This document shows positions 30,285 through 39,242 of a stretch of 64,000 nucleotides of DNA, piece by piece (the stretch's first letter is position 1; each line of letters begins with the position of its first letter). Under the pieces are notes generated by a model, which saw nothing but the letters and a program-made list of their open reading frames with translations, did no database searches and was not told the DNA's origin. The DNA is from Thiothrix litoralis. Lineage in GTDB: Bacteria; Pseudomonadota; Gammaproteobacteria; Thiotrichales; Thiotrichaceae. The position numbers and the translations under genes were made by a program. The DNA lies in assembly GCF_017901135.1 (NCBI RefSeq), contig NZ_CP072801.1, positions 992,001 to 1,056,000 of the forward strand, written 5' to 3'.

Positions 30285-31553
30285 GGGAACCTCTAAAAAC
30301 CCCCTGAACCCCGTAAAATGTGAGAAAATGCTCATCTGAGCCACCGCCCCGTTACTAGCCATGCCCAAGAAAAGTGCCATCAAAACCAGTCTGTTTGCCG
30401 CCGAAGAGCGTGAACAGAAACTCGACCGCAAGGGCGACCTGCTGTCCACGCTGAACCAGCACGTCAACTTTGTCGCCTTGGCAGCAGAAATCGACCACAT
30501 CGCCCCACGCCCCAGTGACAAACGAGGAGGTCGTCCGCCCTACCCAACGGAACTAATGGTACGTATCTTGGTATTACAACACCTTTACAACCTGTCGGAC
30601 GAGGCATTGGAATACCAGTTGCTTGACCGACTGTCGTTCCAACGGTTCTGTGGTCTGCGGCATTCCAGCACGATCCCGGATGCCAACACCTTGTGGGTAT
30701 TCCGTGAACGGATCAGCGAGGCAGGTGGCGCGGATGTGCTGTTTGATGCCGTCCAACGGCAGTTACAACAGCACGGTTTTATTGCCCGTGGTGGTCAAAT
30801 CGTCGATGCCACGCTGGTGGAAGCACCTAAACAACATTTCCACAAAGAAGAAAAAGTGCTGTTGGAACAAGCGGCAACACCTGCTGACTGGACGCCTGCC
30901 CAACGTCGCCAAAAGGATACGGAAGCAAGCTGGACGAAGAAACACGGTAAAAGCTACCACGGCTACAAACTCAGCATCAGTGCCGACCGGAAATACAAAC
31001 TCATCCGCAAACGCCACATCAGCACTGCCAAAGAGCATGACACCAACCATTTTGAAGCGGTGCTTGACCGAGCCAACACCAGCCGTGACGTATGGGCGGA
31101 CAAAGGTTACGAAGACCAATCCCGTGAACAACGCATCAACCAAGGTAGCTGGCGGTTACACATCCAGCACAAAGCCAAGAAAGGCAAACCGCAATCCGAC
31201 TGCCAGAAACGCCGCAACACCCGCATCGCCAGACCCCGCGCACGGGTTGAGCATGTGTTTGGGTCAATCTGTGCGATGGGTGGCAAAGCCATCCGTAGCA
31301 TTGGGTTGGCACGGGCAGTATTCGGACTCAGCATCAAGGCTGCCGTATACAACCTGCGTCGGCTTTGTTCGCTCAAAGAAGGCGGAGTTGTGCCCATTTG
31401 ACGGGAAAACCCCTGAAAAAGCTGCAAAAATGCGGAAAAACCACCTGATTATGGCTTGGTGTGCTAAAAATTGAGATGGATTGGTGTTTTTTTAACAAAA
31501 TGCCGATAGGTTAACGCTAACCTCTGCAATACTACGGGTTTTTAGAGGTTCCC
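30285..31553 (+). mobile_element. IS5-family insertion sequence, 1269 bp, intact
   Basis: Complete element. Perfect 18-bp terminal inverted repeats, GGGAACCTCTAAAAACCC at 30285-30302 and its complement at 31536-31553. A 4-base target duplication CTAT flanks both sides (30281-30284 and 31554-31557). One transposase gene fills most of it. Intact ends and exact duplication point to a recent insertion. It lies between the McrB-like gene and the TA remnants. Confidence 0.9.
30361..31401 (+). CDS. IS5-family DDE transposase
   Basis: 346-residue transposase. An N-terminal DUF772-type domain (YPTELMVRILVLQHLYNLSDEA) precedes the DDE catalytic part: first Asp in QIVDATLVEAP, second in VWADKGYED, and Glu in RARVEHVFGSI. 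The C-terminal Y-(2)-R-(3)-E-(6)-K-like pattern is seen in RVEHVFGSICAMGGKAI. No frameshift or internal stop, so it may be active. Confidence 0.92.
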   Translation: MPKKSAIKTSLFAAEEREQKLDRKGDLLSTLNQHVNFVALAAEIDHIAPRPSDKRGGRPPYPTELMVRILVLQHLYNLSDEALEYQLLDRLSFQRFCGLRHSSTIPDANTLWVFRERISEAGGADVLFDAVQRQLQQHGFIARGGQIVDATLVEAPKQHFHKEEKVLLEQAATPADWTPAQRRQKDTEASWTKKHGKSYHGYKLSISADRKYKLIRKRHISTAKEHDTNHFEAVLDRANTSRDVWADKGYEDQSREQRINQGSWRLHIQHKAKKGKPQSDCQKRRNTRIARPRARVEHVFGSICAMGGKAIRSIGLARAVFGLSIKAAVYNLRRLCSLKEGGVVPI

Positions 31554-31889: not shown

Positions 31890-31963
31890 TGGCTTATCTA
31901 TTTGATACTAATATCATTACAGTGTGTTGTGCGGCTATACCCAAACCGAGAATGAGAGGATGA
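31889..31963 (+). pseudogene. Truncated PIN toxin (vapC-like) remnant
   Basis: The 24-codon frame starting at 31889 reads MAYLFDTNIITVCC and stops at 31961-31963. MxYLFDTNII is the standard N-terminus of VapC-type PIN nucleases and holds the first catalytic Asp; the remaining about 110 residues are gone. The stop codon TGA overlaps the start codon of the BrnT-type gene, so the deletion joined the vapC start directly to the BrnTA module. Confidence 0.65.
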
Positions 31964-32256
31964 AATATAATTTCGAGTGGGATCCAGTCAAGGCTAAGAC
32001 CAACCTTAAAAAACATAAAATTAGCTTTGAAGAGGCAGCGGAAGTGTTTCTTGACCCCCTGCATTTAACCATCCCTGACGACGAACACAGTGACACTGAA
32101 GAACGTTGGGTTACTTTGGGTAATACCAAAGCACACAAGGTTCATTTGGTGGTGCATACTTTTCTAACGTATTACGACGATCAGGTCACGATACGAATCA
32201 TTTCTGCTAGACCTGCTACACGCCATGAACAACGACAGTATGAGGATTTAGGATGA
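31960..32256 (+). CDS. brnT: BrnT-family toxin
   Basis: 98-residue RelE-fold ribonuclease toxin. Family signs: the start MKYNFEWDPVKAKTNLKKHKISFEEAAEVF (first part) with the WDPxKAxxNxxKHxIxF pattern, DPLHLTIPD, ERWVTLGNT and RIISARPATRHEQRQYE. BrnT cleaves RNA and is neutralised by BrnA; the pair represses its own promoter. Length is typical. The ATG at 31960 overlaps the stop of the vapC remnant; the true promoter may have been replaced by the deletion. The brnA start overlaps its stop by 4 bases. Confidence 0.88.
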   Translation: MKYNFEWDPVKAKTNLKKHKISFEEAAEVFLDPLHLTIPDDEHSDTEERWVTLGNTKAHKVHLVVHTFLTYYDDQVTIRIISARPATRHEQRQYEDLG

Positions 32257-35551: not shown

Positions 35552-37678
35552 ATGCTTACCCAGAATGCTCTGGTGATATTTTATCAGAAAAATTTATGGC
35601 GTATTCCGCCTGTTTACATGGTAGAGAATGGTATGGCTTTGCTTGAGCTCGCGTTATTAGGTTTCAGTGGTGGTTTTTTTTATGCTGGAAAAAAGCCTGA
35701 AAAAACTGGCAATAAACGCAATGCCCTTGCTAGGCTCAGGGCGGCACTGGCTCCCATAAAAGCGCATAAACAGTCACTCCAGACCTTTATTGCCGAATCT
35801 CCCGATCAGGAAGCCGATGAAAAAGCCCTTGCGGATCAACGTGAGCTAAAAAGAACTGCCTCCGTCTTTGCTGGCTCAACAGCCATTGCCGTGGCGGGAA
35901 CAGTGCTTTACCCGCCGCTGGCGGTTCTGAGTGTGCCGGGAGCAGTCTATCTGCTGCGGGATGTGTATGTTAATACTGCCGACACAGTGATCAAAGGCAA
36001 GCCTGTCGGTGTTGACCCGTTAATGGCGATTTTCACCACCAGTATGCTTTATCAGGGGCATTTCGTCGTCAGCCATTTTTTCATTTCCCTGTATTTGCTA
36101 AACCGGCAACTGATTAAACGGGTCAAGCAGGAATCGAAGAGAAACATCATTGATGTCTTCCGCGACCAGCCGAGTACCGCGTGGGTCATTATTGATGGCA
36201 CAGAGGTGGAACAACAGGTCAGCGCCATTCGGGAAAAAGCGATCGTGGTGGTCAGGGCGGGGGAATCCGTGCCGGTTGACGGGCAGGTGCTGGAAGGCTT
36301 TGCTGCGGTGGATCAACACATGCTAACCGGGGAATCCCAGCCAGTGGAGAAAAGTGCAGGCGACACCGTATTTGCTTGCACCGTTGTCCTGACCGGCTCT
36401 ATCCATGTGCAGGTAGAAAAAACCGGGGAAGAAACCGCTTCCGCCCGCATCGGGCAGATTCTTAACAGTACCGTGGACTTCAAAACCAGCAAACAACTCT
36501 GGGCGGAAAAGATTACCCAGCAGACCGTAATGCCCACCTTGGGTCTGAGTGCTCTGACGCTGGCGCTGGCTGGGCCGACTACTGCATTGATCTTCATCAA
36601 CTCCCATTTCCGCTATCGCCTGATGCTGGCTACGTCCACCTCGGCATTGACCTTCCTGAATCTGGCGGCGCAAAAAGGCGTGTTGCTGAAGTCAGGCATC
36701 ATACTGGAGAAGATGCAAAACATAGACACGGTGGTCTTCGACAAAACCGGCACACTGACGCTGGAGACGCCTAACGTTGCTGAGGTCACTGCCTTTGGTG
36801 ACTGGGATGCCAATACCATTCTCGGCCTTGCCGCATCGGTCGAAGGCCGCCAAAGCCATCCGGTAGCCAAAGCGATTTGCAACAAGGCAGCCGCACTCGG
36901 TTTGCAGGTCGAAGCCAGTCATGAGGCCAGCTATCAGGTCGGTTACGGTCTGGTCGCCAGTATTGGTAAGCAACAGATTCAGGTGGGCAGTCTGCGTTAT
37001 GCCCAGCAACAAGGCTTCGCGATTCCGCCCGCGCTGCTGGACAAGGCCGAACAATGCCACTTACTGGGTAACTCACTGATTATCGTCAGTGTGGATGGTG
37101 TCATTGCCGGTGCCATTGAGTTACAAGCCACGATTCGCCCGGAAACCAGCGCAGTGATTCAGAGACTGCGTGATCAGGGTTTGTCCTTGCACATTATTTC
37201 TGGCGATCATCCGGCGCCCACCAAACGGCTGGCGGAAACCCTGCATATTGATAATTACCATGCGGAAGTGCTGCCGGAAACCAAGGCGGAAATCATAAAG
37301 CAGCTTCAGGCCGAAGGGCGTTCGGTGTGTTACATCGGTGATGGCATCAATGACGCCATTGCACTCAAGGAAGCCAGCGTTTCGGTGTCGTTGCGGGGTG
37401 CATCCAGCGTGGCAACCGATACTGCCGAAGTCATTCTTATGGATCAAAATCTGAACCGCTTGTGTGACCTGTTCCAGTTAGCCCGCGAGTACGACCAGAA
37501 TGTGAAAACCACTTCCCAGATGGTCATCATTCCTTCACTGATGAATCTGGGTCTGGCTTTCGTTCCCGGCTACGGGCTGGCTGCTTCGATGACCCTGAGT
37601 GCTACCAGTGTATTGGCAGGCTTTGGCAGTTCCATGTTGCCACTGATTCGCCACCAACAAACCCGAATCATTGGCTGA
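35552..37678 (+). CDS. P1B-type ATPase-like protein lacking the CPC motif
   Basis: 708-residue P-type ATPase. The actuator TGES is LTGESQPVEK, the phosphorylation loop is VVFDKTGTLTLETPN (Asp near residue 397), the P1B-type SHPVA is at GRQSHPVAKAI and the hinge is YIGDGINDAIALKEA. These place it in the heavy-metal (P1B) class. However, the membrane helix ahead of the phosphorylation site reads HFRYRLMLATSTSALTF where other members have CPC or SPC, and there is no N-terminal metal-binding domain. So the cargo may not be a soft metal. It is followed 31 bases later by a bi-domain methyltransferase gene. An ATG at 35618 is an alternative start. Confidence 0.8.
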   Translation: MLTQNALVIFYQKNLWRIPPVYMVENGMALLELALLGFSGGFFYAGKKPEKTGNKRNALARLRAALAPIKAHKQSLQTFIAESPDQEADEKALADQRELKRTASVFAGSTAIAVAGTVLYPPLAVLSVPGAVYLLRDVYVNTADTVIKGKPVGVDPLMAIFTTSMLYQGHFVVSHFFISLYLLNRQLIKRVKQESKRNIIDVFRDQPSTAWVIIDGTEVEQQVSAIREKAIVVVRAGESVPVDGQVLEGFAAVDQHMLTGESQPVEKSAGDTVFACTVVLTGSIHVQVEKTGEETASARIGQILNSTVDFKTSKQLWAEKITQQTVMPTLGLSALTLALAGPTTALIFINSHFRYRLMLATSTSALTFLNLAAQKGVLLKSGIILEKMQNIDTVVFDKTGTLTLETPNVAEVTAFGDWDANTILGLAASVEGRQSHPVAKAICNKAAALGLQVEASHEASYQVGYGLVASIGKQQIQVGSLRYAQQQGFAIPPALLDKAEQCHLLGNSLIIVSVDGVIAGAIELQATIRPETSAVIQRLRDQGLSLHIISGDHPAPTKRLAETLHIDNYHAEVLPETKAEIIKQLQAEGRSVCYIGDGINDAIALKEASVSVSLRGASSVATDTAEVILMDQNLNRLCDLFQLAREYDQNVKTTSQMVIIPSLMNLGLAFVPGYGLAASMTLSATSVLAGFGSSMLPLIRHQQTRIIG

Positions 37679-37709
37679 TGCGTCGTAAACAAATGTATAA
37701 GGATATGTG

Positions 37710-39242
37710 GTGAAAGAGATGACAAACCTGCGCAAGACACTGGCTTTCGATGACTACCCGGCTTTTTATCAGGACGATAACCGCCGCAACCGGGGTTTCA
37801 ATCCCACCAGCAAGGCATTTCTGGAAGCCAAGTTTGGCGTCCTGTTGCCAGAACATCTGCTCAAAGGCAAGAAAGTGCTGGATTTAGGCTCCTGCTACGG
37901 TGCTGCGGGTCAGTGGGTGCTGTACAACGGGGCGGCAAGTTATACCGGCGTCGAAGTGCAGCAAAACTACGTCAGTGAATCCCGTCGTTTGTTGGCGCAC
38001 TGGCAGGATCGAGTCGAGATTGTGCATCAGGATGTCACCAGCTACCTGCTGGCCACGGCTGATCAGGCATTCGATCTGGTGTTGCTGGCGGGGATGCTTT
38101 ATCACTTCGTCGATACCAAGCAGATTATTGATCAAGCGTGCCGGATAGCCAGTCAGCAGGTGGTGGTGGAAACCAATTACCCGCCGGGTATGCGTTCCGG
38201 GAAATTGCCAATGGATGTGGCAGTCACCGAATACGTCACCGATCAGGAAGTCAATCTCGATCATGGCAACCAGTCGATGCTGGGCATTTCTGCCACTACT
38301 TCCCTGTCGGCGCTGGATATTTTGTTTCGCCTGAATGGTTTTGCCAAACAGGAAAACAAGCTGGTGTTTCCACTTGGCTCTGACACGGTTATTTATGACG
38401 AAAGCGCACTGGGTAGTAGCGATTTGCAGATTCGTTTTGCCGTGCGTTATTTCCGTGATGAAAAGCAGCAGCGCCTGACCACGCTGGAAAGCAATCTGCC
38501 CGAACAGTCTGGTCAGAAACGTTCCTGGGAGAATGATCCGGTCGCTACAGCCAGAACTGATGCATACCAACGGCAGGCCAAAGCGCTGGCGAGCACTGCT
38601 AAACCGGGCGAGTGGAAGTTTGATGCGCAGGTGGCGGAAGTGTTTGATGGCATTGCCCGCCGTGAAATTCCCGATTACCTGCGGGTTATCGACCTGTGCG
38701 TGCGGGTCATCGGCAAGGGTAAACTTGAGCAGCCGAAAATCATTGATGTGGGTAGCGCAACCGGCGAAACCTTGCGGCAACTGCATCAGGCGGGCTACCG
38801 GAATCTTTACGGTGTGGATGCTTCAGCAGACATGCTCGCCCAATCCTTCCAGCAGGCAACCCTCATCCATTCAGAAGACTTCCCAGAAGCGCATGGCCCA
38901 TTTGACTATGTGTTGAACAATTGGACGTTACATTTCATCCGCAACCCGTTGAATTACCTTGAGGCGATCAAGCGCTCACTGGCTCCGGGTGGTACTTTGA
39001 TTCTGTCTGACAAGGTGTCGAGCAGTGAGTGCGTCCACGACCTGTATTATGACTATAAGCGTACCAATGGTGTTACCGAGGAAGAAATTCTGAGGAAACG
39101 CCAGCAAATTGAAGGCGTGTTGGTGACTTATCCTTTCACCTGGTATCTGAATGCGCTGACCAATCTGGGGTTTGAACAAATTGAAATTATCAATGCGAAT
39201 GCAGCGTTTGTGACGTTTATGGCGGTGAATCCCGCTGAATAA
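37710..39242 (+). CDS. Fused methyltransferase: N-terminal MTase domain plus CmoA-like domain
   Basis: About 510 residues with two SAM-binding domains. Domain 1 (residues 50-180): KVLDLGSCYGAAGQWVLY, VEIVHQDVTSY, LLAGMLYHFVDTKQIIDQ, loosely CmoB-like. Domain 2 (from about 290) follows CmoA closely: GEWKFDAQVAEVFDGIARR, IIDVGSATGETLRQL, YVLNNWTLHFI, and DYYKR-type LYYDYKRTNGVTEEEI, ending FEQIEIINANAAFVTFMA. CmoA makes carboxy-SAM from prephenate and SAM; the KRxNG Arg is kept. So it may both make and use carboxy-SAM. GTG start at 37710, AAGGATAT upstream; GTG at 37707 or ATG at 37719 are alternatives. Confidence 0.7.
   Translation: MKEMTNLRKTLAFDDYPAFYQDDNRRNRGFNPTSKAFLEAKFGVLLPEHLLKGKKVLDLGSCYGAAGQWVLYNGAASYTGVEVQQNYVSESRRLLAHWQDRVEIVHQDVTSYLLATADQAFDLVLLAGMLYHFVDTKQIIDQACRIASQQVVVETNYPPGMRSGKLPMDVAVTEYVTDQEVNLDHGNQSMLGISATTSLSALDILFRLNGFAKQENKLVFPLGSDTVIYDESALGSSDLQIRFAVRYFRDEKQQRLTTLESNLPEQSGQKRSWENDPVATARTDAYQRQAKALASTAKPGEWKFDAQVAEVFDGIARREIPDYLRVIDLCVRVIGKGKLEQPKIIDVGSATGETLRQLHQAGYRNLYGVDASADMLAQSFQQATLIHSEDFPEAHGPFDYVLNNWTLHFIRNPLNYLEAIKRSLAPGGTLILSDKVSSSECVHDLYYDYKRTNGVTEEEILRKRQQIEGVLVTYPFTWYLNALTNLGFEQIEIINANAAFVTFMAVNPAE

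Follow-up and report, generated by a model that had tools for sequence, protein, structure and literature searches.

The DNA analysed here (the window) is a 64,000-nucleotide stretch of Thiothrix litoralis (NZ_CP072801.1, positions 992,001 to 1,056,000). It encodes a two-domain fusion protein (37707–39242, forward strand; 511 amino acids from a GTG start at 37707) in which an N-terminal methyltransferase-like domain (N-domain) precedes a C-terminal domain (C-domain) related to CmoA, the enzyme that converts S-adenosylmethionine (SAM) and prephenate into carboxy-SAM. The two domains are fused in one chain, the C-domain combines a predicted CmoA-like fold with the counterpart of CmoA Arg199, the host cmoB is an orphan, cmoA is missing from most genomes that carry the fusion, and the N- and C-domains occur as a recurrent pair. 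These observations are best explained, with a probability of roughly 0.6, by a carboxy-SAM-making C-domain that replaced CmoA and an N-domain that acts as its partner transferase. Like CmoA, the C-domain would convert SAM and prephenate into carboxy-SAM; it would have displaced ordinary CmoA in T. litoralis and most fusion-bearing relatives, and would supply CmoB with carboxy-SAM for synthesis of 5-carboxymethoxyuridine (cmo5U) in tRNA. The N-domain would be a dedicated transferase that uses carboxy-SAM (or SAM) to alkylate a different acceptor, putatively by carboxymethyl transfer, and the fusion may also serve a second, undescribed reaction.

The union of a methyltransferase domain with a CmoA-like domain, proposed in a first-pass annotation of this stretch, is real: several Pfam class I methyltransferase models match two separate stretches of the protein, and TIGR00740 (CmoA) matches the second. 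A second possible start is the in-frame ATG at 37719, and residues are counted here from 37722, in a 506-residue numbering. The N-domain (37722–38531, residues 1–270) is predicted to adopt the class I SAM methyltransferase fold, and the CmoA-like, putative carboxy-SAM synthase domain lies at 38577–39242, with residues ~291–502 following CmoA. The closest named relative found is the fusion of Thiothrix lacustris DSM 21227 (88%).

The C-domain aligns with positions 8–238 of the 239 in TIGR00740 (E 2.5e-26, 92.9 bits), and those of its relatives score 50 to 100 bits on the same model, fragments included. Its sequence also matches the CmoA structures of E. coli (4gek, E 8.5e-17) and Haemophilus (1im8, E 7.9e-16). 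By sequence it is thus a divergent CmoA relative, with similarity far above chance and outside the limit of the NCBI family. An AlphaFold2 (AF2) model of the whole fusion has an overall pLDDT (predicted local distance difference test) of 71; in comparisons with known structures, CmoA chains come next by E-value after four two-domain methyltransferases, and the C-domain model reaches TM-scores of 0.76–0.77 to them (by target length), so that the modelled fold is CmoA-like. In CmoA, Arg199 alone contacts the carboxylate of carboxy-SAM, as described in PMC4482062. Its counterpart is R460 (39099–39101) in the alignment; the numbering follows 4gek with an assumed offset of 14 tag residues, upon which both Phe133 and Arg199 fall on the right letters. 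Arginine occupies this position in 48/48 canonical CmoA sequences (47 from the order and one from G138, a more distant carrier) and in 11 of 50 aligned C-domains, namely those of the window, G052, G029, G028, G047, G031, G030, G094, G095, G138 and Candidatus Thiobius zoothamnicola; these make up 11 of the 13 aligned cellular C-domains, or 11 of 12 in the cellular clade once G282 is set aside. The lysine of the KR motif and the lysine directly before Arg199 are present in 50/50. Loss of the CmoA active-site residues, which the first-pass annotation had named as the finding that would speak against its proposal, is not seen in the window protein. The C-domain is therefore a credible carboxy-SAM synthase domain on sequence and model, and, by the Arg199 mark, the window's clade appears equipped to make carboxy-SAM, in contrast to the family at large.

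The T. litoralis genome (G000; 4.28 Mb, one contig, completeness 100) encodes CmoB (455.5 bits, C1:912603-913544) and TrhP (775.9 bits against an equivalog cut-off of 534), which makes the 5-hydroxyuridine (ho5U) precursor. The expectation that separate cmoA and cmoB genes would be found elsewhere in the genome held for cmoB and failed for cmoA: the sole CmoA match at E <= 0.001 across the genome is the C-domain of the fusion, which lies at about C1:1029.7–1031.2 kb and forms no operon with cmoB. Since no cmoA was found, the simplest role for the C-domain would be to feed CmoB for ordinary tRNA cmo5U.

The same pattern emerges across the order, in which 63 genomes were searched with the fusion and with the CmoA and CmoB models. 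The fusion or its C-domain occurs in nine of them, seven with full-length proteins (G000, G028, G029, G030, G031, G047 and G052) and two partial: in G032 a contig end cuts the gene, and in G013, which may hold a second stand-alone copy, the C-domain lacks an upstream N-domain and is truncated at its opposite end. Canonical CmoA exceeds the cut-off in 47/63 genomes, but in only one of the nine carriers (G028) compared with 46 of the 54 others (Fisher p 2.6e-5). Among the 46 genomes that are >=90% complete and <=5% contaminated, the corresponding figures are 1/6 and 38/40 (Fisher p 8.8e-5); because the genomes are related, both p-values overstate independence. Five carriers without CmoA are >=97% complete (G000, G052, G029, G030 and G031). 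Of the seven genomes with full-length fusions, six (all except G031) keep CmoB, as do the further carriers G095, G138 and G282. Six order genomes have CmoB over the cut-off without CmoA, and five of these carry the fusion (G000, G029, G030, G047 and G052); in the sixth, G010, the CmoB match starts at contig position 6 and covers model positions 80–316 only. Conversely, G008, G025 and G037 have CmoA and no CmoB.

The sites of loss can be located. In four of five relatives whose cmoB regions were fetched (G051, G053, G048 and G028), the usual order is a dehydrogenase-like gene, read from its sequence as a short-chain dehydrogenase, followed by cmoA and cmoB; in the exception, G054, cmoA lies some 7 kb from cmoB. 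In G000, G052, G029, G030 and G047, cmoA is missing and the dehydrogenase-like gene is followed directly by cmoB. The stop of the dehydrogenase-like gene overlaps the likely cmoB start in both G000 and G052, and the identity of the two junctions points to one common loss. A trace of such a loss remains in the distant carrier G282 (39% identity), in which the start and end of the cmoA frame persist upstream of cmoB with the middle gone; judged from the sequence this is a pseudogene, and, as the contig is 14.6 kb long, the truncation is not a contig-end effect.

A survey of 369 gammaproteobacterial genomes (including G000 and two more of the order's family; E down to 1e-8, with up to four candidates scored per genome) added five full-length fusions (G094, 71%; G095, 58%; G258, 50%; G138, 49%; G282, 39%) and one stand-alone C-domain (G202, 68%; the same as Ca. 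Thiobius zoothamnicola, G429, with identical coordinates and scores). Among these six carriers, canonical CmoA exceeds the cut-off only in G138 and CmoB is present in G138, G202, G282 and G095. The symbiont Ca. Thiobius combines a C-domain alone (245 amino acids) with CmoB (463 bits) and no canonical CmoA. Fusion C-domains separate from canonical CmoA at 100/100 in the tree, and the Thiobius protein falls inside a clade (98/98) that excludes the fusions of G258, G138, G095 and G282; this nesting suggests that the N-domain was probably lost there and the C-domain kept. Taken together, the absence of cmoA from most carriers, the loss sites, the G282 pseudogene and the lone Thiobius C-domain make it likely, on comparative genomics, that the C-domain displaced CmoA in the window's clade. 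Proteins of TrhP size in the U32 family or UPF0176_N matches were found in 11 of the 13 carriers searched; neither was found in G047 and G095, both incomplete.

The N-domain is a class I methyltransferase domain with a distant likeness to CmoB. Its AF2 model, built from 43 sequences, has a pLDDT of 95.5, and SAM motif I begins at residue ~51. The CmoB-like LYH motif noted in the first-pass annotation is present at residues 126–128, though it is a weak marker and the matches to CmoB are themselves weak: the N-domain reaches E-values of 5.8e-6 and 2e-5 on CmoB models, MetW, MftM and TIGR04290 score better, and its 23.6 bits on TIGR00452 (CmoB) fall under the NCBIfam cut-off of 275. The best matches of the model in the Protein Data Bank (PDB) are assorted class I methyltransferases; CmoB takes ranks 2 and 3, and 13 of the first 50 are of CmoB type (11 named CmoB and two chains of 4p7c), with TM-scores of 0.51–0.55 by query length; some unrelated entries score as high or higher. 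Comparison of profiles gives CmoB a probability of 97% over 148 columns and places Y127 (38100–38102) on CmoB Tyr200, and a 12-sequence N-domain profile gives 95.9% for CmoB and 40% for CmoA. Tyr200 of CmoB is a carboxylate ligand of carboxy-SAM (PMC4482062; PMC10491745). The aligned position holds tyrosine in 12/12 cellular and 17/33 viral N-domains. Outside the SAM motifs, D19, R21 and R238 are invariant in 45/45 rows and R24 is found in 44/45; these residues, which include the D-x-R-x-x-R motif (R21 to R24, 37782–37793) and R238 (38433–38435), are candidate anion ligands that could not be aligned with CmoB Lys91 and Arg315.

Evidence that the N-domain works with the C-domain comes from putative viral contigs. 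Searching IMG/VR with the alignment of the family yielded 53 loci (L168–L220), of which 23 encode a one-chain fusion and 17 adjacent N- and C-domain open reading frames (ORFs); three have both domains with other genes between them (L190, L205 and its near-copy L206) and ten have a single domain within the stretch fetched. Once contigs that by eye share match lengths and scores are set aside, 19 fused and 13 split loci are distinct (one of the 19, L187, with a 731-residue frame, was excluded from alignments), and each of the 13 split pairs shows an ORF overlap of 4 to 62 bp when the earliest possible start codon is used. In the tree, fused forms are interspersed with split ones, and supported branches force at least three changes between them. 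When ten neighbours from seven loci were scanned against PHROGs, named functions were matched in L207 (DNA polymerase), L174 (tail fibre), L197 (DNA ligase), L180 (NAMPT) and L170 (RNA-binding protein); L202 and L203 match only families lacking a function, and a protein of L175 gave no match. Some of the contigs carry genes that read as bacterial. Other neighbours at the viral loci include 2-oxoglutarate-Fe(II) oxygenases, a class IV aminotransferase, a radical SAM protein and an alpha/beta hydrolase.

The N-domain is probably the dedicated partner of the C-domain, and the case for its using what the C-domain makes rests chiefly on this close association, which holds for fused and split forms alike. 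That a single chain both makes and uses carboxy-SAM, as was first suggested, is plausible in light of the recurrent pair; carboxymethyl transfer by the N-domain would be a putative step, and the chances that it uses carboxy-SAM appear evenly balanced. Three genomes bear on this point: G094 (100% complete), G258 (99%) and G031 (97%) carry the fusion with neither CmoA nor CmoB over the cut-offs and retain an ho5U-forming enzyme by equivalog model (TrhP in G094 and G258, TrhO in G031), which suggests that the N-domain may itself use carboxy-SAM there.

An unlikely alternative is that the fusion is mainly a small-molecule tailoring enzyme whose product is exported or energised by the neighbouring ATPase, the supply of CmoB being a by-product. 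That ATPase (35552–37678, forward strand, 708 amino acids) ends 28 bp upstream of the fusion and seems only loosely associated with it. It carries the motifs DKTGT, TGES and GDGIND and passes TIGR01525 (399.7 bits, cut-off 346.25). It reads ALIFINSHFRYR in the stretch where P1B pumps carry CPx, a motif found there in 0/13 aligned family members; the protein is thus P1B-like and atypical, as the first-pass annotation held. Metal transport was set aside as its role, given the missing CPx and the mixed neighbours of its relatives. The ATPase adjoins the fusion in three of the 12 genomes with full-length fusions, namely G000, G028 (Leucothrix arctica, L014), in which it precedes the fusion with a 4-bp ORF overlap, and G094 (L139); the G028 and G094 proteins are 72% and 63% identical to that of the window. 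No such ATPase lies within the stretch fetched at the other nine, and fusion neighbourhoods vary between genomes. The conserved pairing of fusion and ATPase envisaged earlier therefore largely fails, and a functional link between the two is doubtful. Family members in G000 and its relatives instead stand near other enzymes of tailoring type, including an adenylation–peptidyl carrier protein–reductase protein with a thioesterase, a sulfotransferase, histidine-specific methyltransferases, a ketoreductase–acyl carrier protein–aminotransferase protein, a sulfatase and a chorismate-binding enzyme. Five more CPx-less ATPases of the family are encoded in G000 (C1:231969, 247482, 3222961, 3255799 and 3265977; L159–L163); Pfam names tailoring or secondary-metabolism enzymes near L159–L162, and the family seems to accompany genes of this kind generally. 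In G047, an ATPase of the same family (L060:3287-5407; 36% identity over 611 amino acids) adjoins the orphan cmoB in convergent orientation.

Fusion neighbours elsewhere also lend some weight to a tailoring role. The fusions of G258 and G138 are flanked by a cupin protein on one side and an Asn_synthase-domain protein on the other; G258 also has an Nramp gene a few genes on. The G282 fusion is followed by a protein that resembles AMP-binding enzymes but scores under the Pfam cut-off, and by a pyridoxal phosphate-dependent decarboxylase. In the phage carboxymethylcytosine system described in PMC12783734, an ATP-dependent ligase joins the carboxymethyl group to glycine, and one related ligase cluster has an asparagine-synthetase-like amidase domain. 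These ligases are taken to act on the carboxyl group, and the Asn_synthase neighbours in G258 and G138 might do likewise. Since the phage ligases act on a carboxymethyl group, carboxylate-activating neighbours would fit a carboxymethyl product, a reading weakened by the fact that, among cellular members, Arg199 is lacking only in G258 and G282.

Several results weigh against displacement of CmoA by a carboxy-SAM-making C-domain. Its 92.9 bits fall under the curated NCBIfam cut-off of 193.3 for TIGR00740, and BelI and CysG, methyltransferases of other function, reach higher TM-scores (0.80–0.82) than CmoA, which comes first by E-value. The Arg199 position is held by tyrosine in G258, by glutamate in G282, and in the 37 aligned viral C-domains by glutamate (19), alanine (8), lysine (6), glutamine (3) or valine (1), so that carboxy-SAM synthesis is not to be assumed family-wide; in G282 cmoA was lost even though the fusion lacks Arg199. 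Three of the CmoA absences rest on incomplete genomes (G047, 81%; G013, 69%; G032, 64%), eight fusion-free genomes also lack canonical CmoA (G009, G010, G017, G020, G033, G034, G041 and G044), and canonical CmoA and the fusion coexist in G028 and G138. CmoB makes some 5-methoxyuridine (mo5U) from SAM without CmoA (PMC4482062), and an orphan cmoB is for that reason no proof of carboxy-SAM supply. On the N-domain side, a mapping of CmoB Lys91 and Arg315 was dropped when a global profile alignment paired other residues. Signs of decay in the coexisting canonical CmoA proteins (R186G and N132S in G028; R186K and F133Y in G138) amount to at most a weak hint, as Ser186 also occurs in G003 and G008. 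These two proteins, encoded at L057:3402-4157 and L154:1740-2474, have glycine and lysine at residue 186, and two of the other 46 have serine.

Many of these points would be met if the C-domain were an ordinary SAM enzyme or an inactive partner, with the absence of cmoA coincidental and CmoB making mo5U. In keeping with this, Arg199 is missing from 39 of the 50 aligned C-domains, the CmoA score is below the cut-off, and the fold is common to other SAM enzymes such as CysG, BelI and CouO (PMC5289526). This explanation appears improbable, as it leaves the association of the fusion with missing cmoA, and the loss sites between the usual neighbour and cmoB, to chance; moreover, Thiobius keeps a stand-alone C-domain beside an orphan cmoB, and Arg199 is confined to the cellular clade in which cmoA has mostly been lost. 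More improbable still is that the pair constitutes an undescribed synthase-plus-transferase module, the viral and deep branches (Glu, Ala or Lys at position 199) making and transferring another SAM derivative and the Arg clade making carboxy-SAM and hence able to replace CmoA. Also improbable is a single-chain CmoA-CmoB in which the N-domain carboxymethylates ho5U in tRNA and the fusion performs both steps: TrhO or TrhP retained without CmoA and CmoB in G031, G094 and G258, and the profile and PDB matches of the N-domain to CmoB, would suit it, but CmoB is retained by most full-length carriers in the order and by G095, G138 and G282, and the N-domain lacks the ~100-residue N-terminal domain of CmoB, which is thought to be its tRNA platform (PMC4482062).

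The proposed carboxy-SAM-making fusion can be placed among known systems. The C-domain resembles CmoA (TIGR00740; 4gek, 1im8) in its predicted fold, co-linear alignment, Arg199, KR motif and (I/V)P(D/G)Y region; it differs in having about 30% identity, in being fused to a second methyltransferase domain far from cmoB, and in forming a separate clade. The N-domain shares the Rossmann core and the tyrosine of LYH with CmoB (TIGR00452; 4qnu), which is among its nearest solved structures, and differs in the missing N-terminal domain, the low score and the unmatched Lys91 and Arg315. The phage CmoA-CmoX-CmoY system of DNA hypermodification (PMC12783734) likewise comprises a CmoA-like protein with a partner transferase in phages. 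In contrast to that system, the N-domain is not recognisable as a cytosine C5-methyltransferase and the 37 viral C-domains lack Arg199; a motif screen of 53 viral stretches of up to ~11 kb for a cytosine C5-methyltransferase partner with SPPC recovered no ORF of 250–600 amino acids carrying both PPC and EN[VLI]. CmoA homologues also act with carboxymethyltransferases outside tRNA cmo5U in TglE/TglF (3-thiaglutamate) and in MccS/MccB (microcin C, Bacillus), pairs that are likened here by description rather than sequence and that differ in being separate synthase and transferase proteins (PMC10491745). No earlier report of such a fusion, or of any replacement for CmoA, was met in the portions of the open-licence literature consulted.

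If correct, displacement of CmoA by the fusion would mean that a carboxy-SAM synthase and its likely user are joined naturally in one chain, and would be a case of CmoA displacement documented by loss sites and a pseudogene. Absence of cmoA would then not necessarily mean absence of cmo5U. Should the N-domain use carboxy-SAM, a new carboxymethylated product would be expected in sulfur bacteria, and perhaps in phage-infected cells.

A plasmid search with the whole fusion returned 43 records, none at 80% coverage and all below 60% identity; a search of GenBank phages with the C-domain alone, which could not reveal fusions, returned 75 records, all below 60% identity. No promoter- or terminator-like sites beyond those of shuffled sequence were found in the region. 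The ATPase and fusion genes have G+C contents of 51–53%, similar to the 51.8% of the window, and composition therefore gives no sign of recent import. Further upstream, a transposase-like ORF (30361–31401) and a small BrnT-like ORF (31924–32256), both read from sequence, precede a uvrA-like gene.

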